Translations under genes and position numbers: made by a program
In this document: one piece after another, positions 15,226-63,566 of the stretch
Numbering within the stretch: the first letter of the stretch is position 1
Layout of the letters: the number at the start of each line of letters is the position of its first letter
The notes under the pieces: generated by a model
What the model saw: the letters and a program-made list of their open reading frames with translations, nothing else
Database searches by the model: none
What the model was told of the DNA's origin: nothing
Source of the DNA: Cladocopium goreaui
Lineage: Eukaryota; Sar; Dinophyceae; Suessiales; Symbiodiniaceae
DNA length: 64,000 bases
NCBI GenBank assembly: GCA_947184155.2
Contig: CAMXCT020006446.1
Location: 271,001 to 335,000 of the forward strand
Direction: 5' to 3'

Positions 15226-15357
15226 ATACCCTCTGGTTGGAAAGTTACCATCTGGTTATTTAACATAGCCATGGAAAATGGCCCATTTATAGATGGTTTA
15301 CCGGTTTACCTACAAAAAATGGTGATTTTCCATGGCTATGTTAAATAACCAGATGGT
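15226..15357. mobile_element. MITE family A copy
   Basis: TACCCTCTGGTTGG then an inner hairpin GGTTATTTAACATAGCCATGG paired with its complement up to CCAGATGGTA. Confidence 0.78.
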
Positions 15358-17251: not shown

Positions 17252-17946
17252 CTTGGAACGACCCAGGCCTCAAACGAACAACAAAAAGATGGGCCATTGG
17301 TGAAGTCACTTTGAACAGTAGTTATGTAGCGAATGTAGTGCATCATGAACTAACTATCCATCCATATCCATCCCCAGCATATCATATCAAGTCCGTATCC
17401 CCATCTCCAGTTCATCAATGGATTACACATGGGGATGGATATAGATGTAGTGCATCATTGTCATCGGACTCAGTGGATCATGGCTGCAGCGGTAACTGGA
17501 ATGAATAGGAACCCCCTGGTAAACATACAAAAAAACATCAAAAAACTATGGAAACTCACCATTTTTTGATGGGTAAATCAACTATTTCGACTGGGCCATT
17601 TACATGGGGGTATTTTTGGTTGTGGGTTGTACCTTTTTTGACCCACGGACTCTAACCCATCTGCTAATCCCATGGCCCATCTAAGTAACCATCAGGGAAT
17701 TATGATCTGGTCAACCAACCTTGTGACATGGGAAGGCTATGGCTTTCAGGAATATGATGATTATTGTCCACAAACATTAGTTTTTGTTTACTAGCCAAAC
17801 TGCTTCTTTCACCAAAAATCGGATAGAACTGATAGAACCAACTGAATGAAGGTCAACAAAAATCTGTTAACCAACTGAATGACGGTCAACAAAAATCTTT
17901 TTGTAGCAACACTGAGCTATCGAATCTATCGAACCAAAAAAAAAAC

Positions 17947-27094: not shown

Positions 27095-27858
27095 GGGAAA
27101 GAGTTAGTCAAAGAAAGAGTTAGTCAAAGAAACAGTTAGTCAGGGAAAGAGTTAGTCAAAGAAAGAGTTAGTCAGGGAAAGAGTTAGTCAAAGAAAGAGT
27201 TAGTGAGGGAAAGAGTTAGCAAAGAAACCGTTAGTCAAAGAAAGAGTTAGTCAAAGAAACAGTTTGTCAGGGAAAGAGTTAGTCAAAGAAAGCGTTAGTC
27301 AAAGAAAGAGTTAGTCAGGGAAAGAGTTAGTCAAAGAAAGAGTTAGTCAAAGAAAGAGTTAGTCAAAGAAACAGTTAGTCAGGGAAAGAGTTAGTCAAAG
27401 AAAGAGTTAGTGAGGGAAAGAGTTAGTCAAAGAAAGAGTTAGTGAGGGAAAGAGTTAGTCAAAGAAAGAGTTAGTCAAACAAAGAGTTAGTCAAAGAAAC
27501 AGTTAGTCAGGGAAAGAGTTAGTCAAAGAAAGAGTTAGTGAGGGAAAGAGTTAGCAAAGAAACAGTTAGTCAAAGAAAGAGTTAGTCAAAGAAACAGTTA
27601 GTCAGGGAAAGAGTTAGTCAAAGAAAGAGTTAGTCAGGAGTTAGTCAGGGAAAGAGTTAGTCAAAGAAAGAGTTAGTCAAAGAAACAGTTAGTCAAAGGG
27701 AAAGAGTTAGTCAAAGAAAGAGTTAGTGAGGGAAAGAGTTAGTCAAAGAAAGAGTTAGTGAGGGAAAGAGTTAGTGAAAGAAAGAGTTAGTCAAACAAAG
27801 AGTTAGTCAAAGAAACAGTTAGTCAGGGAAAGAGTTAGTCAAAGAAAGAGTTAAAACT
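27095..27858 (+). repeat. GTTAGTCAAAGAAAGA array
   Basis: About 45 copies of a 16-bp unit, alternating AAAGAAAGAGTTAGTC and AGGGAAAGAGTTAGTC variants in a partly regular order. Confidence 0.95.
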
Positions 27859-27861
27859 CTA

Positions 27862-28846
27862 GGATCGTTCCCTCACTGTAAATGGCATTGCAAGTGGTGC
27901 TGGTGGAGGAGTTGCCGACGGAGTTTTGGAGGAAGTCTCGCACGAAATGCGTTTTTGAGAGATAGCAGATGCACGAAACCCTATGTTTTTCCATACAAAG
28001 TCCGTCCCCGAACCTCGATGATCTACCTCTGCGGTGCGACGGTTGCGAGACGGTCTCGTGTGTGGTCGGATCATGCTCGGATCATGGGGATCATTCTCGG
28101 ATCGGTTCCGCATTGTAAATGGGGTTTCAACTGTTTTTCGTGCATGTGTGGTCGACAGAATTCCATTGTGATTTGCAACTGTCGGATCGTTCCCGCATTG
28201 TAAATGGGATGCAAGTGGTGCTGGTGGATGAGTTGCTGATGGAATTGCATTGTGATTTGCAACTCTAGGATCGTTCCCTTCACTGCAAATGGGATTGCAA
28301 GTGGTGCTGGTGGAGGAGTTGCCGATGGAGTTTTGAAGGAAGTCTCGCACGAAATGCGTTTTTGAGAGATAGCAGATGCACGAAACCCTATGTTTTTCCA
28401 TACAAAGTCCGTCCCCGAACCTCGATGATCTACCTCTGCGGTGCGACGGGTGCGAGACGGTCTCGTGTGTGGTCGGATCATGCTCGGATCATGGTCGGAT
28501 CATGGTCGGATCGGTCTCGGATCGGTTCCGCATTGTAAATGGGGTTTCAACTGTGTTTCGTCTATGTGCGGTCGACAGAATTCCATTGTGATTTGCAACT
28601 GTAGGATCGTTCCCGCAATGTAAATGGGATTGCAAGTGGCGCTGGTGGATGAGTTGCCGATGGAATTCCATTGTGATTTGCAACTCTAGGATCGTTCCCT
28701 CACTGCAAATGGGATTGCAAGTGGTGCTGGTGCAGGAGTTGCCGATGGAGTTTTGGAGGAAGTCTCGCACGAAATGCGTTTTTGAGAGATAGCAAATGCA
28801 CGAAAGCCTATGTTTTTCCATACAAAGTGCGTCCACGAACGTCGAT
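27862..28846. repeat. Tandem array, unit about 415 bp, interrupted
   Basis: Copies begin near 27862, 28268 and 28690 with AGGATCGTTCCCTCACTG and contain GTCTCGTGTGTGGTCGGATCA. The third copy is split by the 3.4-kb element and resumes at 32286-32590. Confidence 0.92.
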
Positions 28847-29799
28847 GATCTTCACAGGGACCTACACTACACTCACCCACACTCCCCCCCCCAAAATAAT
28901 AAGCAATATAGCCTTATTTCGGTCGTTTTTGCCAAAACGTCCGATTTTGGAGGAGAATGCCTTATTTAGGGCTTATTTCCAATGCTTGAATGGTGGTTCG
29001 AACATGATCGAAATAAGGCATGATAACCCTTATTTTCACCAGTGCACTTGGCTAAAATAAGGCCATATGAACCTTATTTTTCTTCTGGAACATGATCATG
29101 GAATAAGGGCATTTTGACCAGCGCACTTGGTTTAAATAAGGCATGATGAACCTTACCCATCTTCTGGGATAACGAGGGCGACCTCAAATGTGGAATTTTG
29201 CTGTTGATGAAATTCATGATATGATGTGGAACCAAAAGTGCAACCGACTTCGACATGAAGGTTACAGTCCTGATCTGTTACAAATTTCCAACCTGATAAA
29301 CATTTCCCCGGGGGTTCTGCCTTCAACAATTGCGCGGTGTTCAAAACCTCACAATATATCCTTATTTCCATGGTATTAATGAAAACGTTGGATTTGGGAG
29401 GACGGGACCTTAATTAGTGCTTATTTGCATTGTTTAGTACTGGTTTGAACCTAACCGAAATAAGGACTATAAGCCATTATTTTCACCAGTTCACTTGGCT
29501 TAAATAAGGCAATGACGGACCAATCTTCATCATCCTTGTTCTTAGTAAACCCATAATAAGCTCTTATCCACTGGGCGCTGCTGCATCTGAAGCATGGAAA
29601 AGATAGGGATTCAACCAACCGCCTGCAAAGACGACCCACCGGCTTATCAAGGGCTTATCAAGAGTCTATTAATGACTTCTACTCCTGTGATTTCCATCAC
29701 ATTCTCAGCCAATGAACTTTGATCTGTGAGTTGACCAATCCAAGCTCTGTGAGATGACCTGAAAAACATCCTAGTATTTATCACCCTCTGCTGTCAACG

Positions 29800-31920
29800 C
29801 TTGATGATCGCATTTTCCATCGCATGGCCTATTGATGTACTAGTCCCTTTGGTTTTTGGGCTGCGCGTTCCCCTGGATTTTTTTGACGTGAAGAAACTCA
29901 AGCTTGGGGGCCCCTTTTTGGTAAGACAGTACAAGTAATGTCCTCTGATGGGTCGAATCTGTAGGTAAACCTTAGGTATGGCTTATTTAGGGCTTATTTA
30001 GGTCTTATTATTTGTGGCTTATTGATGCCCTATTCTCTTTGGTTCTTGGGCTGCGCTTTCCCCTGGATCTTTGCGAAGTGAAGACAGTTAAGCTTGGGGG
30101 CCCCTTTTGGTAAGACAGTTCAGTACGAGTAATGTCCTCTGATGGGTCGAATCTGTAGGTAAACCTTAGGTGTGGCTTATTTAGGGCTTATTTAGGGCTT
30201 ATTTAGGGCTTATTTAGGGCTTATTATTTGTGGCTATAAGGTTCCATGAGGTTTCTGGAAACAATTTTCGGGAAGAAAAACGCCAAAAATCTGAGCCCTT
30301 CGCGAAGGGCTCAGATTTTTGGCGTTTTTCTTCCCGAAAATGGTTTCCAAAGACTTCCATGGAACTCTATATTTGTGGCTTATTGATGCCCTATTGTCTT
30401 TGGTTCTTGGGCTGCGCTTTCCCCTGGATCTTTTTGAAGTGAAGAAAGTTACGCTTGGGGGCCCCTTTTGGTGAGACAGTACAAGTAATGTCCTCTGATG
30501 GGTCGAATCTGTAGGTCACCCTTAGTTATGGCTTATTTAGGGCTTATTTAGGGCTTATTATTTGTGGCTTATTGATGACCTATTCCCTTTGGTTTTTGGG
30601 CTGCGCTTTCCCCTGGATTTTTTTGAAGTGAAGAAACTCAAGCTTGGGGGCCCCTTTTGGTAAGACAGTACACATAATGTCCTCTGATGGGTCGAATCTG
30701 TTGGTAAACCTTATCACCATCTGGATGCTCTCTGTGGCTCAAAGACGAGAATTATTTGCAGGAATGGCTACAAAGTGGGTTCCTCCATAATGTCCTCTGA
30801 TGGCTCGAATCTGTAGGTAACCCTTAGTTATGGCTTATTTAGTGCTTATTTAGGGTTTATTATATGTGGCTTATTGATGTACTATTCCCCTTGGTTTTTG
30901 GGCTGCGCATTCCCCTGGTTTTTTTTGAAGTGAAGAAACTCAAGCTTGGGGGCCCCTTTTTGGTAAGACAGTACAAGTAATGTCCTCTGATGGCTCGAAT
31001 CTGTAGGTAAACCTTAGGTATGGCTTATTTAGGGCTTATTTAGGTCTTATTATTTGTGGCTTATTGATGCCCTATTCTCTTTGGTTCTTGGGCTCCCCTG
31101 GATCTTTTTGAAGTGAAGAAAGTTACGCTTGGGGGCCCCTTTTGGTGAGACAGTACAAGTAATGTCCTCTGATGGGTCGAATCTAATGTTAAACCTTATT
31201 GCTGGCCTATTTAGGGCTTATTTAGGGCTTATTATTTGTGGCTTATTGATGACCTATTCCCTTTGGTTTTTGGGCTGCGCTTCCCCTGGATTTTTTTTGA
31301 AGTGAAGAAACTCAAGCTTGGGGGCCCCTTTTGGTAAGACAGTACACATAATGTCCTCTGATGGGTCGAATCTGTTGGTAAACCTTATCACCATCTGGAT
31401 GCTCTCTGTGGTTCAAAGACGAGAATTATTTGCAGGAATGGCTACAAAGTGGGTTCCTCCATAATGTCCTCTGATGGCTCGAATCTGTAGGTAACCCTTA
31501 GTTATGGCTTATTTAGTGCTTATTTAGGGCTTATTATATGTGGCTTATTGATGTACTATTCCCCTTGGTTTTTGGGCTGCGCATTCCCCTGGTTTTTTTT
31601 GAAGTGAAGAAACTCAAGCTTGGGGGCCCCTTTTTGGTAAGACAGTACAAGTAATGTCCTCTGATGGGTCGAATCTAATGTTAAACCTTAGGTATGGCTT
31701 ATTTAGGGCTTATTTAGGTCTTATTATTTGTGGCTTATTGATGCCCTATTCTCTTTGGTTCTTGGGCTGCGCTTTCCCCTGGATCTTTGCGAAGTGAAGA
31801 CAGTTAAGCTTGGGGGCCCCTTTTGGTAAGACAGTTCAGTACAAGTAATGTCCTCTGATGGGTCGAACCTGTAGGTAACCCTTAGTGATGGCTTGTGTAG
31901 GGCTGCTGTCATCGCATGCC
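29800..31920. repeat. Internal tandem repeats of the 3.4-kb element
   Basis: Units of roughly 180-230 bp share CTGCGCTTTCCCCTGGAT, CTTGGGGGCCCCTTTTGG and AATGTCCTCTGATGGGTCGA, joined by TTTAGGGCTTA tracts. Two blocks starting near 30560 and 31240 repeat each other at a higher-order period near 670 bp, both carrying GGAATGGCTACAAAGTGGG. Confidence 0.9.
30236..30370. mobile_element. 135-bp palindromic element with 10-bp flanking duplication
   Basis: A near-perfect hairpin centred at 30302/30303, with 39 bp of uninterrupted arms and imperfect matching to both ends. ATTTGTGGCT flanks both sides (30226-30235, 30371-30380). Neighbouring repeat units have that string once, so this is a nested insertion. 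Foldback structure with a 9-10-bp duplication is Mutator-like; that class call is inference. Confidence 0.85.
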
Positions 31921-32285
31921 AATGTCAAAAATCGAACGGGAACATTTCAATCAATAATAAGGAAATTATTGCTTATTCCACCGCATTCCCAGGCAATGAA
32001 CTTTGATCTGTGGGGTGACCAATCCAAGCTCCCAAAATAAGACACTTTTAGCCTTATTTTGCCCCCTTTGATCTGTACCTGGGCCCAAAGAAAATAGACC
32101 TTAATTAGGCCTTATAATTTGTGTAACAAATCATCAAAGCTTATTCAAGGCTTAAATAAGGCCATTTTGCCGTTTTTGTGGTTTAAGCTTCTAATAGCTA
32201 TTTGATAAGCTACTATTAAATTTACAACCCTTATTATTTTGGGGGGGGAGTGTGGGTGAGTGTAGTGTAGGTCCCTGTGAGATCT

Positions 32286-33894: not shown

Positions 33895-35205
33895 TGAGAT
33901 GAACTGTGGAGTGTGAAGAGTGTAGTGTGAAATGTGGGGCGTGAAGAGTGCAGTGTGACGTGTGAAGTGTGAAGTTTGGAGTGTGAAGGAAGCAGTGAGA
34001 AGTGAGAAGTGTGAAGTGAGAAGTGTGAAGTGTGGAGTGTGAAGTTTGGAGTGCAAAGAGTGCAGTGTGAAGTGTGGAGTGTGAAGAGTGCAGTGTGAAG
34101 TGTACAGTGTGAAGGAAGCAGTGGGAAGTGAGAAGTGTGAAGTGTGGAGTGTGAAGTTTAAGTTTGGAGTGCGAAGAGTGAGTGTGAAGTGTGAAGTGTG
34201 AGGTTTGGAGTGTGAAGGCAGCAGTGAGAAGTGAGAAGTGTGAAGTGTGGACTGTGAAGTGTGGAGTGTGAAGTGCGAAGTGAGAAGTGTGAAGTTTGGA
34301 GTGTGAAGGAAGCAGTGAGAAGTGTGAAGTGCGAAGTGAGAAGTGTGAAGTGTGAAGTTTGGAGTGTGAAGTTTGGAGTGGGAAGGAAGCAGTGAGAAGT
34401 GAGAAGTGTGAAGTGTGGACTGTGAAGTGTGGAGTGTGAAGTGCGAAGTGAGAAGTGTGAAGTGTGGACTGTGAAGGAAGCAGTGAGAAGTGAGAAGTGT
34501 GAAGTGAGAAGTGTGAAGTGTGGACTGTGCAGTGTGGAGTGCGAAGAGCGCAGTGTGAAGTGTGAAGTGTGAAGTGTGAGGTTTGGAGTGTGAAGGAAGC
34601 AGTGAGAAGTGTGAAGTGTGGGCTGTGAAGTGTGAAGTGTGAGTGAAGTGTGGAGTGTGAAGTGCGAAGTGAGAAGTGTGAAGTGTGAAGTTTGGAGTGT
34701 GAAGTTTGGAGTGGGAAGGAAGCAGTGAGAAGTGAGAAGTGTGAAGTGAGAAGTGTGAAGTGTGGACTGTGCAGTGTGGAGTGCGAAGAGCGCAGTGTGA
34801 AGTGTGAAGTGTGAAGTGTGAGGTTTGGAGTGTGAAGGAAGCAGTGAGAAGTGTGAAGTGTGAAATGTGGAGTGTGAAGTGTGAAGTGTGAAGTTTGGAG
34901 TGTGAAGGAAGCAGTGAGAAGTGAGAAGTGTGAAATGTGGAGTGTGAAGTGTGAAGTGTGAAGTGCGAAGTGAGAAGTGAGAAGTGTGGACTGTGAAGTG
35001 TGAAGTGTGAAGTGTGGACTGTGAAGTGTGAAGTGTGAAGTGTGGACTGTGAAGTGTGAAGTGTGCAGTGTGAAGTGTGAAGTGTGAGGTTTGGAGTGTA
35101 AAGGAAGCAGTGAGAAGTGAGAAGTGTGGAGTGTGAAGTGTGGAGTGTGAAGTTTGAAGTTTGGAGTGCGAAGAGTGCAGTGTGCAGTGTGAGGTGTGGA
35201 GTGTC
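33895..35205 (+). repeat. GTGAAGTGTG satellite
   Basis: About 1.3 kb of degenerate GTGAAGTGTGGAGTGTGAAG-type units, with longer units closed by GGAAGCAGTGAGAAGTGAGA. One strand is almost pure G/A/T. Long open frames on the other strand (His-Thr-Ser-Phe repeats) are artefacts of the repeat. Confidence 0.95.
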
Positions 35206-57089: not shown

Positions 57090-59400
57090 AGAGGATTTAA
57101 AGAATTAAATGGTTTAATCCTTTTAATCCTTCTAATCCTCCAGAGCCTTTGGGGGATTAAACGGATTAAAAGGATTAAATCACTTAATCCTTTTAATCCT
57201 TTTAATCCTCCAAAGCCTCTGGAGGATTAAAAGGATTAAAAGGATTAAATGCTTGGTCCTCACATTGGGGTTCTGGGGGCTCTGGAGGATTAAAAGGATT
57301 AAAAGGATTAAAAGGATTAAATCATTTAATCCAATGCTTGGGCCTTAGACTCCAGATCTCTGGGGGATTAAAAGGATTGAAAGGATTAAAAGGATTAAAA
57401 GGATTAAATGATTTAATCCTTTTAGTCCTTTTAATCCTCCAAAGCCTCTGGAGGATTAAAAGGATTAAAAGGATTAAATGCTTGGTCCTCACATTGGGGT
57501 TCTGGGGGCTCTGGAGGATTAAAAGGATTAAAAGGATTAAAAGGATTAAATCATTTAATCCAATGCTTGGGCCTTAGACTCCAGATCTCTGGGGGATTAA
57601 AAGGATTAAAAGGATTAAAAGGATTAAAAGGATTAAATGATTAAATCCTTTTAATCCTTTTAATCCTCCAGAGCCTTTGGGGGATTAAATGGATTAAAAG
57701 GATTAAATGATTTAATCCTTTTAATCCTTTTAATCCCAGAGCCTTTGGGGGATTAAAAGGATTAAAAGGATTAAATCATTTAATCCTTTTAATCCCTTTA
57801 ATCCTTTTAATCCTTTTAATCCAGAGCCCCCAGAACCCCAATGTGAGGACCAAGCATTTAATCCTTTTAATCCTTTTAGTCCTCCAGAGGCTTTGGAGGA
57901 TTAAAAGGATTAAAAGAATTAAATCATTTAATCCTTTTAATCCAATCCTCCAGAGCCTTATTAAATGGATTAAAAGGATTAAATGATTTAATCCTTTTAA
58001 TCCTTTTAATCCTCCAGAGCCTTTGGGGGATTAAAAGGATTAAAAGGATTAAATCCTTTAATCCTTTTAATCCTCCAGAGCCCCCAGAACCCCAATGTGA
58101 GGACCAAGCATTTAATCCTTTTAATCCTTTTAATCCTCCAGAGGCTTTGGAGGATTAAAAGGATTAAAAGGATTAAATCATTAAATCCAATGCTTGGGCC
58201 TTAGACTCCAGATCTCTGCGGGAGTAAAAGGACTAAAAGGATTAAAAGGATTAAATGATTTAATCCTTTTAATCCTCCAGAGCCTTTGGGGGATTAAACG
58301 GTCATTTAATCCTTTTAATCCTTTTAATCCTCCAGAGCTTTTGGGGGATTAAAAGGATTAAAAGGATTAAATCATTTAATCCTTTTGATCCCTTTAATCC
58401 TTTTAATCCTTTTAATCCTCCAGAGTCCCCAGAACCCCAATGTGAGGACCAAGCATTTAATCCTTTTAATCCTTTTAGTCCTCCAGAGGCTTTGGAGGAT
58501 TAAATGGATTAAAAGGATTAAATAATTTAATCCTTTTAATCCTTTTAATCCTCCAGAGCTTTTGGGGGATTAAAAGGATTAAAAGTATTAAATCATTTAA
58601 TCCTTTTAATCCCTTTAATCCTTTTAATCCTTTTAATCCTCCAGAGTCCCCAGAACCCCAATGTGAGGACCAAGCATTTAATCCTTTTAATCCTTTTAGT
58701 CCTCCAGAGGCTTTGGAGGATTAAATGGATTAAAAGGATTAAATAATTTAATCCTTTTAATCCTTTTAATCCTCCAGAGCCTTTGGGGGATTAAAGAAAG
58801 GGAATAAAGTGGATTTAAAGGAATAAAAAAGGAAAATTAAATGATTAAAAAAAAAAAAAAGAAAAAAAAAAAAAAAAAACAAAAACAAAAAAATTTAATC
58901 CTTTTAATCCTTTTAATCCTCCAGAGCTTTTGGGGGATTAAAAGGATTAAAAGTATTAAATCATTTAATCCTTTTATTCCCTTTAATCCTTTTAATCCTT
59001 TTAATCCTTTTAATCCTTTTAATCCTCCAGGGGGTCCGGAATTCCCGGTCCAAGCCCTTGAGAAATATATTTAAATCCATTTAATCCTTTTAATCCTCCA
59101 GAGCCCTTTGGGGATTAAAAGGATTAAACGGATTAAATGATTTAATCCTTTTAATCCTTTTAATCCTTTAATCCTTTTAATCCTTTAATCTCGGGATCGG
59201 GGGGTTTGGAGGATTAAAAGGATTAAACGGATTAAAGGATTAAAAGGAATTATATAAAGAATTAAAAGTATTTTAAGAATTAAGTGCGGGGCTTTCTCGG
59301 GATTCGGGGAGTTTGGAGGATTACATGATTAAAATGATAAAAGGATAAAGGATTAAAGGATAAATGATTTAATCCTTTTAATCCTTTTAATCCTCCAGAG
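57090..59400. repeat. GGATTAAAA satellite with inverted halves
   Basis: Long runs of GGATTAAAA and its complement TTTTAATCC alternate, joined by CCAGAGCCTTTGGGGGATT spacers. A second spacer, TTGGTCCTCACATTGGGG, occurs in this orientation near 57255 and 57485 and reversed near 57835, 58090, 58435 and 58655, so the halves face each other. A poly(A)-rich piece lies at 58845-58885. No coding signal. Confidence 0.95.
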
Positions 59401-59772: not shown

Positions 59773-60333
59773 TCAAAGTTGCAAGAATGCAGGGGTGAGG
59801 CATGTCACCCTGCCTTTGGCAGCATTGTAAGTGACTGCACACGAGATTTCTTGTAAAGAAGCAAGACCCGGATTTCTGGGCACCGCCACTGTCCATTTGG
59901 AAACATTGTGTTTGTTTGAAATTTCCTGGAACAAATATTTTTCGACAAGGGCCACATCACCACATGGGACTTTCAAAAAGCAATGCTCTTGAGCTGCATT
60001 GAAAGCTGGTGAGCCTCCATCCACATTGTGCAAACAGACAACATCACCAGAAGTAATTGTTGCACCAGAAAAAAGTTTACAACAAGAGCTCTGCATGCAA
60101 GGCATTCCCACAGGAACCACTCCAGCATTGCATAGAAATATAGGAATGCCGTCATCTTCTTTGTGGGGCCCCCTTTGCATTTTGTAGGCAGGTGCCTTCT
60201 CTAACAATCTTGACTCTTCACCCAATGTACAGATGTGCTCTGCAATGACAGACTTCATCAAAGAAGTTTCCCAATGGGTAGTGTTGCACAAGACATTCCC
60301 ATGTTTTCTAATGCCTTTGTGCTTCCTTTCCAT
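59773..60333 (-). pseudogene. Transposase-like element, C-terminal frame
   Basis: 186 codons beginning MERKHKGIRKHGNVLCNTT and including LFSGATITSGDVVCLHNVDG. Ends in a stop near the element boundary. Confidence 0.7.
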
Positions 60334-60802
60334 GGTCCAGAATGCAGGTAATTGGCCATGCCTCTGGAGACTTTGACTATAATATGAAGTGACCAGTGCA
60401 TCTTTGGCTCGAATTCTTCAGACCAGTCAGCTGCAACAGTTGCCTCCAATGCTGCTTCAACAAATGAAAGCAATTGCTTGTGGTCAGGCTTTTCCAAAGC
60501 AGGGATGGATAGGCAATAATCCAAAACTTTGCACCAAGCCAAAGAGCAAGTTGGCCCCAGAAGACAAATGCCATTGGCAAGCAGCAAATTTGGACATAGT
60601 GTGCCAGCACCTGGTACAGACCCAGAATCTCTGAGGATGAGCATTTGAATTTCCCAGCTTTTTTGTGGCCTTCCACTGCTTTGGGCAGAAATAACCTTTG
60701 CAAATTGCATTTGTGAATGGCAGGCTGGGCCCAAAGTTGCACAAAGCCATGTGCCTTCCAAATCTCAGCCACACCACTGGAAGCAAGCGGTTGGATCCAC
60801 AA
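60258..60802 (-). pseudogene. Transposase-like element, late part in two frames
   Basis: One frame carries KFKCSSSEILGLYQVLAHYV; the other SIPALEKPDHKQLLSFVEAA and EEFEPKMHWSLH. The sense alternates between them, showing further indels. Confidence 0.65.
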
Positions 60803-61046
60803 AAAAAAATACCCAGTTCAGCACACCATTTGGGCAGAGCCCATGCATATAATCATGCATGTATTGGGTGATTGGTCTCAGAAGGTTCTGGGACTTCAGC
60901 TTGTCACTCAGCAAGAGTGAATGCTGGGAATAATCAACCCCAGAAGCCTGGCTCCACCTTCTGAACTCGGTTTTGTTGCAAGCTGTGCTCCTCTCTTGCA
61001 TCCTTGCCCACGAGGACAGGATTTCTTGGTCTGTTGCAATATCCAA
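60765..61046 (-). pseudogene. Transposase-like element, MHDYMHG frame
   Basis: Reads MDIATDQEILSSWARMQER, SGVDYSQHSLLLSDKLK and PITQYMHDYMHGLCPNGVL. The frame is lost after VFFFVDP. Confidence 0.7.
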
Positions 61047-61476
61047 CAGAGAGTTTCAGTCTTTTAGGACCTCCCTGTAAAAGTACCCCGGAATGAGGAT
61101 GAGCATATTTGTTGTCAAACGTGTGCTCCAGGATCAACCTGAAACATTGGCCAATGCTGGCTGCCAGCTGTGAGACTTGCTTACTCCTCTCCCCAAGCAA
61201 TGTCAACCAACTTTCAGAATTTGACAGCGTGGCCCCAAACTGGGCAGATGAACAGTAAATTGCCCATGTATTCCTAGAATTCCCTGCCAATTGGTTTCCA
61301 GGGTGCAGTTCATCTACATAAAGAATGCAAGACCAAGGGTTGTTGAAGGAACTAGGGTTGTTGTCATGTACCTTGTCCAAATAATCCGCAAAGCAGCCAC
61401 CAGCTGCATAAGCACCAGCCAAATAGCTAAAGATGTTGGCAAATGCCAATTCCACATGGTCCTCTTCCAAAATCAT
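60934..61476 (-). pseudogene. Transposase-like element, catalytic-core-like frame
   Basis: 180 codons with CILYVDELHPGNQLAGNSR, NTWAIYCSSAQFGATLSNSE and IGQCFRLILEH. Acidic residues in YVDE and downstream could be part of a DDE site; that is inference. Confidence 0.7.
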
Positions 61477-61835
61477 AGCTGAAGGCCAGCAATGACCTGC
61501 TCAACAAACTCTCTGATTTGTTTCCTTTTGTGGCTGGCAGGAATGCTTTCCTGGGCTGCCAAAGTCAATATGGCTTCCAGGGCTGACTGGCTGCAAAATG
61601 GGATTCTCTGTCTAAAACTTTGCAATTTTGGAAAGTCTGGCATGGCTGGCTGGAAGCATTTCTTGAGACAATGTTGGAGTATGACTGTGTGAAAGGCAAA
61701 AACTAGTGTTCCATGGCCTGCTGTGGAACCTGCTGCTAACATGGCCTCCAAACATGTCATTTGCAGATTTGGCACACATTGCCTTGGGCCAGGCCTTGCT
61801 TCATGCAGTAGCCTTGCAGACAGCTGTGCCCACAA
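61473..61835 (-). pseudogene. Transposase-like element, frame before the core
   Basis: 120 codons ending CSQSALEAILTLAAQESIP.. and KRKQIREFVEQVIAGLQL, just before the core frame. Upstream 61836-62067 shows only broken pieces. Confidence 0.65.
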
Positions 61836-62067
61836 TGCTGTACTACTGATTCAAACAAAAAAGCCCTTGCAGGCAAACGGATTTCAAATGATAGCTCTTG
61901 AAGCCAAAACTGAAAAACAACAAGCAGAACCAAGGGCAGCACTGCAAGTTAGTGGCCACTTGCTTTCATGCTGGAAAATATGTCTCGATAAGTATGTCCA
62001 GAGAAAGCCTAAGCGTTTCTGTTTTCCCCCACTGCCTGTATGATTTACCATTGCGGTGTTTGCATGG

Positions 62068-62415
62068 TTATTTACCACAAGGCAGCCCACGATCTTTTGT
62101 CAGACCAAGGAAATGTTTACACTTCCTTTTGTTCCCCTGCTGCTTTTCTTGTACCACTTGTTGTATTCCTGTCTTGAACTGAGACTGAGTCCCCCCAAAG
62201 TAGGGAGACTGGCACTTGTCACAGCCACTCACACTGCCACGGCATCTGACACATCCATAGATTCCTTTGGGGAAAGCTGGTGTGACATGCTTTGCTTCCT
62301 CAGCATTCTTCTTCACAATGGCCTTTTGCTTGGGCTCTGCTTTGGCTAGGCTTTTCTTAGTAGCTGGCCTCTTCATGGCAGTATCCAAATCATTGCCCTT
62401 CCTCTTGGTGAGCAT
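62068..62415 (-). pseudogene. Transposase-like element, Lys-rich tail and Cys knuckle
   Basis: A Lys/Ala-rich run (KRPATKKSLAKAEPKQKA) precedes IYGCVRCRGSVSGCDKCQS, a C-x2-C...C-x2-C arrangement that could bind zinc or nucleic acid. Confidence 0.68.
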
Positions 62416-62841
62416 GTGTTTGGCCTCAGCTTCATAGTCCTCAAGGCTTTTGCCTGGGTGCCATCATGTCCTCCAGCAGGTGCAGCACAGTCAGAAGGCG
62501 CAGGTAGAGGCAAAACAGCTGGAACTGCCGGCAAAGCTTTGGGAGTCAAAGAGGTGGAGTCCCTTGGGCCGGCCCCATCTGAGAGCAAGGAGTTGCTGGA
62601 AGCAGGCTCCTCCAAGCTATCATTGTTCAAGATTTTCTGGCTCAAGGCATCCAAAGCTCTGGCCTGTTTCTCCATTTGTAGGATCTTTCCCTGTCGAAGG
62701 CTCTGCTGGCAACTGCTGAGAGGTTGCCTGTGGAGTGGCCACAGCCCTGAGTTCCTTGGCAGTTCCGCTCACCGTGACTTTCTTGGCAATGCTTCCAAGG
62801 TTTATCATATGACTGGTAGCGAGCAAGCAGAAAGCCTGCAA
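62373..62841 (-). pseudogene. Transposase-like element, Pro/Ser/Ala-rich linker
   Basis: Two overlapping frames, one ending TGETGQSFGCLEPENLEQ-like and one starting MEKQARALDALSQKILNND followed by a Pro/Ala/Val-rich stretch. Another frame change occurs near 62450. Confidence 0.6.
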
Positions 62842-62961
62842 GTGTTCATGTTCAAATGGAAATATGTATACGTGTCCATGTGTGTGTGTGTTCAGGGATT
62901 ATGTCATGGCTAAATTTTGACTTCAAAATTATCAGCTTGAAAGCAGCCATCACCAAAGATT

Positions 62962-63435
62962 TTACAAACCCAGTGCCTCCCCAATGTCGTGGGGGCTAGG
63001 TGGGTACCTTGCCAAACCAGCATGCAGAGGTTGAGCCACCACAGCCTCGAACGTATCCAGCACAAAATTTGTACATTTCAAAAACTGGAGGCAAGACATT
63101 GGTGATTTCACCTGAAGGCTGACCAAAAAGGATGTCAAGTACTTCTTGGTGTCTTCTTTGAGGCTTTTCAACCCACACACTTTGATTCTTTTGATCAGCA
63201 TGTGGGTAGCATCAACTGTGTTGATGCCATTCTGCATCTGCTGCCATTCGCTTTGGGACAAGTAGTTCCAAGGCGTGGTCATGCTTTGAGGTGTAGCCTG
63301 CAACCTGGTGGCCCCTTGGATTGAAGAGGCTGCCCTTGATTCGAGAAATGCTTGCAACTCTGCCTTCGTGTCAGCAGTCAAGATGCCATTTTGAACAGCA
63401 TCAGGACTCTTCAAGAAGTTAGAAGCAGTGAGCAT
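62962..63435 (-). pseudogene. Transposase-like element, second frame
   Basis: 157 codons, including TPWNYLSQSEWQQM, IKRIKVCGLKSLKEDTKKYL and ARYPPSPHDIGEALGL. Helical and basic; ends in a stop. Confidence 0.72.
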
Positions 63436-63566
63436 TGGACACCGTTCACTTTGGACTGCAAAGCTTCCTGCATTCGTGGCACCAGCTGTGAACCAGCGTT
63501 CCTTTGGTAAATCGCTTCCATATCACTAATCTCCTTGACTAAGTCCTCAACGTCCCAAGTAGCCAT
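63411..63566 (-). pseudogene. Transposase-like element, N-terminal frame
   Basis: Starts MATWDVEDLVKEISDMEAI and runs 52 codons to TGA. The sense continues in another frame from about 63435 (LTASNFLKSPDAVQ), so a frameshift lies near 63430. Confidence 0.7.

Follow-up and report, generated by a model that had tools for sequence, protein, structure and literature searches.

A small family of non-autonomous inverted-repeat DNA transposons with a motif-rich tandem array in the dinoflagellate Cladocopium goreaui

Introduction

Among the described transposons with tandem repeats in their interior are Tetris and Galileo of Drosophila. Parts of the published account present the foldback element Tetris as apparently non-autonomous, with three structurally complete copies, no apparent coding capacity and tandem repeats of ~220 bp in varying number; in Galileo, the tandem repeats contain extra transposase-binding sites (PMC4079207). 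Several systems produce 5-bp target-site duplications. In excerpts of their description, TDD-4 and TDD-5 (Ginger2/TDD) of the protist Dictyostelium combine such duplications with inverted repeats of 260 and 297 bp, a length of ~3.8 kb and, for Ginger2, ends of the form TGTNR (PMC2836005), and 5-bp duplications are also stated for some hAT families (PMC12730594) and for a RAG-like transposon of Aureococcus anophagefferens with CACACCC ends (PMC9435367). CACTA/EnSpm elements are characterized, in the section of the source that concerns them, by CACTA/CACTG termini and a 3-bp duplication (PMC10741241). In dinoflagellates, the introners of Symbiodinium microadriaticum, ~0.1 kb long in the paper's example, carry inverted repeats, create 4-bp target duplications and act as introns (PMC9860276, in part).

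The element described here was found in a 64,000-nucleotide stretch of C. goreaui DNA (the window), which corresponds to C5849:271001-335000 of a 1.17-Gb assembly of 6202 contigs. It shares with Tetris all the traits listed above, but in Tetris and Galileo the tandem repeats form part of the inverted repeats, which measure up to 1,735 bp in Tetris, whereas here the array lies between repeats of ~52 bp, and Tetris duplications measure 8-10 bp compared with 5 bp here (PMC4079207, in the parts cited). A foldback element, with long inverted repeats that themselves contain the tandem repeats, was rejected on this basis. The TDD elements resemble it in duplication length, inverted repeats, protist host and overall size; Ginger2/TDD was rejected because the family ends are TCACA, and the inverted repeats here are shorter and no integrase frame is present. 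CACTA/EnSpm was rejected on both the ends and the duplication length, and the introner on the duplication length, 4 bp as opposed to 5 bp; a dinoflagellate host, inverted repeats and target duplications are common to both, but copies of the present family measure 0.45-3.4 kb.

Results

Limits of the insertion and its empty site

An earlier note, made from the sequence alone, claimed that a terminal-inverted-repeat insertion of about 3.4 kb splits a tandem repeat in the window. This was confirmed. The insertion occupies 28852-32280 (3429 bp), and GATCT directly adjoins both ends, so that the span 28847-32285 given earlier is the element plus both 5-bp GATCT copies (Table 1). The terminal inverted repeats, TCACAGGGACC...GGTCCCTGTGA (52 nt on the left and 51 nt on the right, 98%), are identical over the first 40 bases, which are followed by a C-run of 9 versus 8 and then by AAAATAATAAG, another 11 agreeing bases. 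The flanking unit, at 27855-28851, repeats in tandem with a period of 420 bp, earlier given as 415 bp, in 2.4 copies with 93% matches. The proposal that intact unit copies provide an empty site was borne out: when the flanks were joined by script and one GATCT was removed, they matched the unit copy that precedes them in an alignment ungapped at the junction, the joined flanks being a restored copy of the surrounding ~420-bp unit.

Table 1. Features of the insertion, in positions of the 64,000-nt window.
Feature	Position	Strand	Evidence
Target-site duplication GATCT, left copy	28847..28851	.	Sequence; empty site
Left terminal inverted repeat, 52 nt	28852..28903	+	End-to-end comparison
Left arm, irregularly spaced SCTTATT/AATAAGS motifs in both orientations	28904..29824	+	Motif count, shuffles
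Internal tandem array, GGCTTATTTAG motifs	29825..31904	+	Tandem-repeat calls, anchors, motif count
Nested hairpin of another multi-copy family	30236..30369	.	Direct repeats of up to 11 bp at 30225-30235 and 30370-30380
Right arm, motif present here too	31905..32229	+	Right-end search, motif count
Right terminal inverted repeat, 51 nt	32230..32280	-	End-to-end comparison
Target-site duplication GATCT, right copy	32281..32285	.	Sequence; empty site

Exact inverted 30-mer pairs within 15 kb were counted over the 64-kb window, giving 828 in total and 57 after subtraction of pairs starting in the 57-59.4-kb block. These 57 comprise 24 pairs of the nested hairpin, 16 at 15251/16124, 11 of the element's terminal pair, 5 at 15246/15329 and 1 at 17572/23601. 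The other 771 start between 57000 and 59400; at 57092-59369, direct and inverted repeats of AGGATTAAA/TTTAATCCT form a nested block of 2 kb.

Coding capacity, array and nested hairpin

The interior had been described as lacking coding capacity, and indeed no open frame inside the element exceeds 93 codons, nor does any exceed 92 codons inside the copy on contig C602; one longer frame (28677-29060) enters the window element from the flank. A Pfam scan of 8 window frames returned no match above cut-off, and an Rfam scan of the window returned nothing at gathering scores. Two other regions of the window are rich in open frames. A 1.3-kb array of the 7-bp unit TGAAGTG (187 copies, 33900-35204) keeps the three reading frames of the minus strand open for 475, 452 and 364 codons, stretches that are probably not coding. 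The minus strand of 59773-63522 contains overlapping frames of ~120-215 codons, one of which includes a cysteine-rich stretch (GCVRCRGSVSGCDKC), and six frames of this region scanned against Pfam gave no match above cut-off.

The description of the whole interior as tandem repeats held for the array and failed for the two arms (Table 1). Array anchors, of which the window copy has 9 and the C602 copy 5, are mostly spaced at 183-190 bp in the window copy; two spacings are 302 bp and one, which contains the nested hairpin, is 361 bp. The copy on C80, the smallest of the three with both ends, has no array. A search with a 441-base internal piece of the array gave 10 matches on 3 contigs, all inside copies of the element family, and there is therefore no sign of arrays seeded elsewhere. 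The suggestion that such a family spreads repeat arrays thus stands only in the sense that the copies carry their own array along.

The nested hairpin is near-perfect, is flanked by direct repeats (TATTTGTGGCT) that reach 11 bp, and was not found in the C602 copy. It belongs to a dispersed family with 78 matches on 28 contigs, in which palindromic places may match on both strands; 72 of the 78 matches reach one of the query ends, but the query was cut near the hairpin limits and the family boundaries are not fixed thereby. On contigs C5089 and C2573, two hairpin arms of ~85 bp face each other across ~305 bp.

Copies of the family in the genome

Searches of the assembly with the left end, the right end and the array piece yielded 9, 11 and 10 matches, respectively, all on contigs C5849, C602, C80 and C494; the array piece matched C5849, C602 and C494 but not C80. 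The search with the 52-bp end proposed in the earlier note thus led to at least four loci, the window copy included, three of them with both ends. Although such counts are lower bounds, they are mutually consistent, and the family is therefore small. The second copy (C602:593260-595645, 2386 bp) is complete, has the same ends as the window copy and is flanked on both sides by a perfect 5-bp duplication, TTGAA. The two copies are 96.7% identical in the first ~1.3 kb and 95.5% in the last ~0.8 kb. The third copy (C80:824345-824797, 453 bp) consists of the first ~350 bp of the left part and a short, diverged right end; its ends are related but diverged, its flanks TTAAT/ATAAT agree at 4 of 5 positions, and it is 94.1% identical to the window copy over 306 aligned positions. 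The neighbouring bases suggest that it may have inserted between GGTATTTAAT and GGTATTTACA. At the fourth locus, C494, the right ~0.5 kb is kept (97.5% identity over 433 positions) and ends GGTTTCTGTGA; no left end was seen in this truncated copy. Divergence among the copies thus amounts to a few per cent.

The three copies with both ends have terminal inverted repeats whose boundaries coincide, those of the third being diverged, and the target duplication has a constant length of 5 bp at the three loci (GATCT and TTGAA perfect, TTAAT/ATAAT 4/5). Because only three copies have both ends, the evidence for the duplication length consists of two perfect cases and one 4/5 case. Coincident boundaries and a 5-bp duplication were the two features on whose recurrence the earlier note had made its proposal depend, and both recur at other copies. 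When up to 3 mismatches were allowed, a 26-nt pattern of the end occurred at 6 places genome-wide, all of them ends of the three complete copies, compared with 0 for the reversed control. The 21-nt dinoflagellate spliced-leader motif had 172 exact matches in the same genome (81 + 91) and 0 in its reversed control, which marks the host as a dinoflagellate.

Looser searches for ends gave more places. With a 21-nt end and up to 3 mismatches, 18 places were found, 7 of them ends of the four family loci, whereas the reversed control gave 28; a looser end pattern gave 28 places versus 18 in the control, again with 7 family ends. Four of the 11 non-family places from the 21-nt search (C595, C1112, C3173 and C3510) were rejected as copies: a partner end was sought within 7.0-8.5 kb, the best flank agreement was 2/5, and the few 14-mer partner-end matches had 3-4 mismatches. 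Two of these four have inverted repeats (25/32 and 22/22) that do not involve the apparent end, and the remaining 7 places were read at the match. Among 26 loci from both degenerate searches (one of them C494), no partner end with a 4-5/5 flank match was present within ~1.5 kb; for two loci the match used differed from the central one, and all partner-end checks cover only elements shorter than the stretches examined. C3173 and C3510 share similar stretches of ~9 kb on different contigs, with 94-99% identity in three aligned blocks, and represent either a duplicated region or two haplotypes; the duplication extends beyond the apparent end, and the match is thus not necessarily a boundary. A viral origin was also rejected, as 19 nt of the end had no exact match in viral contigs and no similar phage DNA was found at E 1e-5.

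A short motif in arms and array

The most distinctive feature of the element is the motif SCTTATT/AATAAGS, which is present in the arms as well as in the array. It occurs 51 times in the 3429 bp of the window copy (41 + 10), 36 times in the 2386 bp of the C602 copy, 13 times in the 453 bp of C80 and 9 times in 509 bp of C494, as opposed to 18 occurrences in the 60,571 window bases that lie outside the element; per kb, this amounts to ~15, ~15, ~29 and ~18, respectively, versus 0.3. Of the motifs in the window copy, 21 fall outside the array, within ~1.35 kb, and these divide almost evenly between the two orientations (11 and 10).

Since the motif was picked after inspection, the commonest 7-mer of each arm was compared with shuffled sequence. 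The left arm has 12 occurrences, against a mean of 3.5 and a maximum of 7 in 500 shuffles; the right arm taken alone has 3, which is not significant (mean 2.8, maximum 7). Elsewhere in the sequence, 101 of 293 sliding windows have a 7-mer at least as frequent; this is ATATATA in 46 of the 101, and the other words, such as GATTAAA and AGTGTGA, resemble those of the tandem repeats in the window. The high motif density is real and common to all four loci. Frequent short words are nevertheless common in this repeat-rich window. By analogy with Galileo and the extra transposase sites in its tandem repeats (PMC4079207), the motif may represent multiplied subterminal binding sites for a transposase or an accessory protein.

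Discussion

The window element very probably belongs to a small dinoflagellate family of non-autonomous DNA transposons that move by cut and paste. In favour of this, three complete copies at unrelated sites were observed to have ends that are identical in kind or related, and 5-bp duplications, an empty site and the lack of a long frame were observed as well; the earlier proposal of a non-autonomous family with terminal inverted repeats is supported by the coincident boundaries in three copies and the duplications at three loci. A transposase-bearing relative with the same ends, which the earlier note had suggested looking for, was not found in searches of the 1.17-Gb genome. It counts against this reading that neither a transposase nor an autonomous copy was found, so that mobilisation in trans is inferred. 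The TCACAGGGACCTACACT... ends would be recognised by a putative transposase encoded elsewhere, which would cut the target with a 5-bp stagger, and the element would move by cut and paste. If the motif is a binding site, the internal tandem array would multiply it, and the array would change in length by unequal exchange, in keeping with 9 versus 5 unit anchors in two copies. The family is a genuine, small, non-autonomous one, and the insertion is ordinary in kind; no description of it was seen in open-licence literature, which was searched by topic and not by sequence.

An inverted repeat arising by chance or by misassembly has practically no chance of being the explanation. Assemblies can fail in tandem repeats, of which the region has many, but the insertion has an exact empty site, and two more complete copies at unrelated sites, each with its own duplication, refute this reading. 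The family could not be placed in a known superfamily, and the remark that the ends match no nameable class is upheld insofar as they fit none of the superfamilies tested. The family may be a hAT member with 5-bp duplications (hAT5) driven by a hAT transposase of the same genome, an assignment we consider unlikely, though not strikingly so. Its 5-bp duplications agree with it, and the genome has 11 matches to the hAT dimerisation domain, all over the cut-off, as against none in 14 control genomes. hAT elements, too, carry dense short subterminal motifs. However, the four family contigs hold none of the 11 matches, and the usual hAT start (C/T, A, ..., G at position 5) differs from the first bases here, TCACAGGG.

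A relationship to Transib/RAG-like transposons, which begin with CAC, is very unlikely. The 5-bp duplication matches and the family ends hold CACAGGG from the second base, but the element begins TCAC, one base before CAC, with T...A inside both ends in all three complete copies, and when counted from CAC the flanks cease to be direct repeats. A RAG1 profile search of the genome gave no match, but the 14 control genomes were silent too, so that this negative carries little weight. That the 5-bp duplications and TCACAGGG ends define a new superfamily is improbable. Compared by published descriptions, Ginger2/TDD, CACTA and the Symbiodinium introner each fail a tested feature; superfamilies, however, are defined by their transposase, none of which was seen here, and end sequences vary widely within them. 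Slightly more improbable still is a fuller version, in which a new dinoflagellate superfamily with these duplications and ends would have a transposase or helper that reads the short motif GGCTTATTTAG, and its non-autonomous members would become more mobile by multiplying this motif in an internal tandem array, whose growth would thus be under selection within the transposon.

Taken as a non-autonomous cut-and-paste family, these copies constitute a well-bounded, low-copy family of dinoflagellate DNA transposons for which the empty site, the recurrent ends and the duplication length are known. According to part of a study of hybrid (short- and long-read) Suessiales assemblies, the DNA transposons recovered there are little diverged and may remain active (PMC8045281). 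The present family could serve as bait for its transposase, and its interior, dense in the motif, provides a system in which the possible retention and lengthening of a tandem array within a transposon can be tested.
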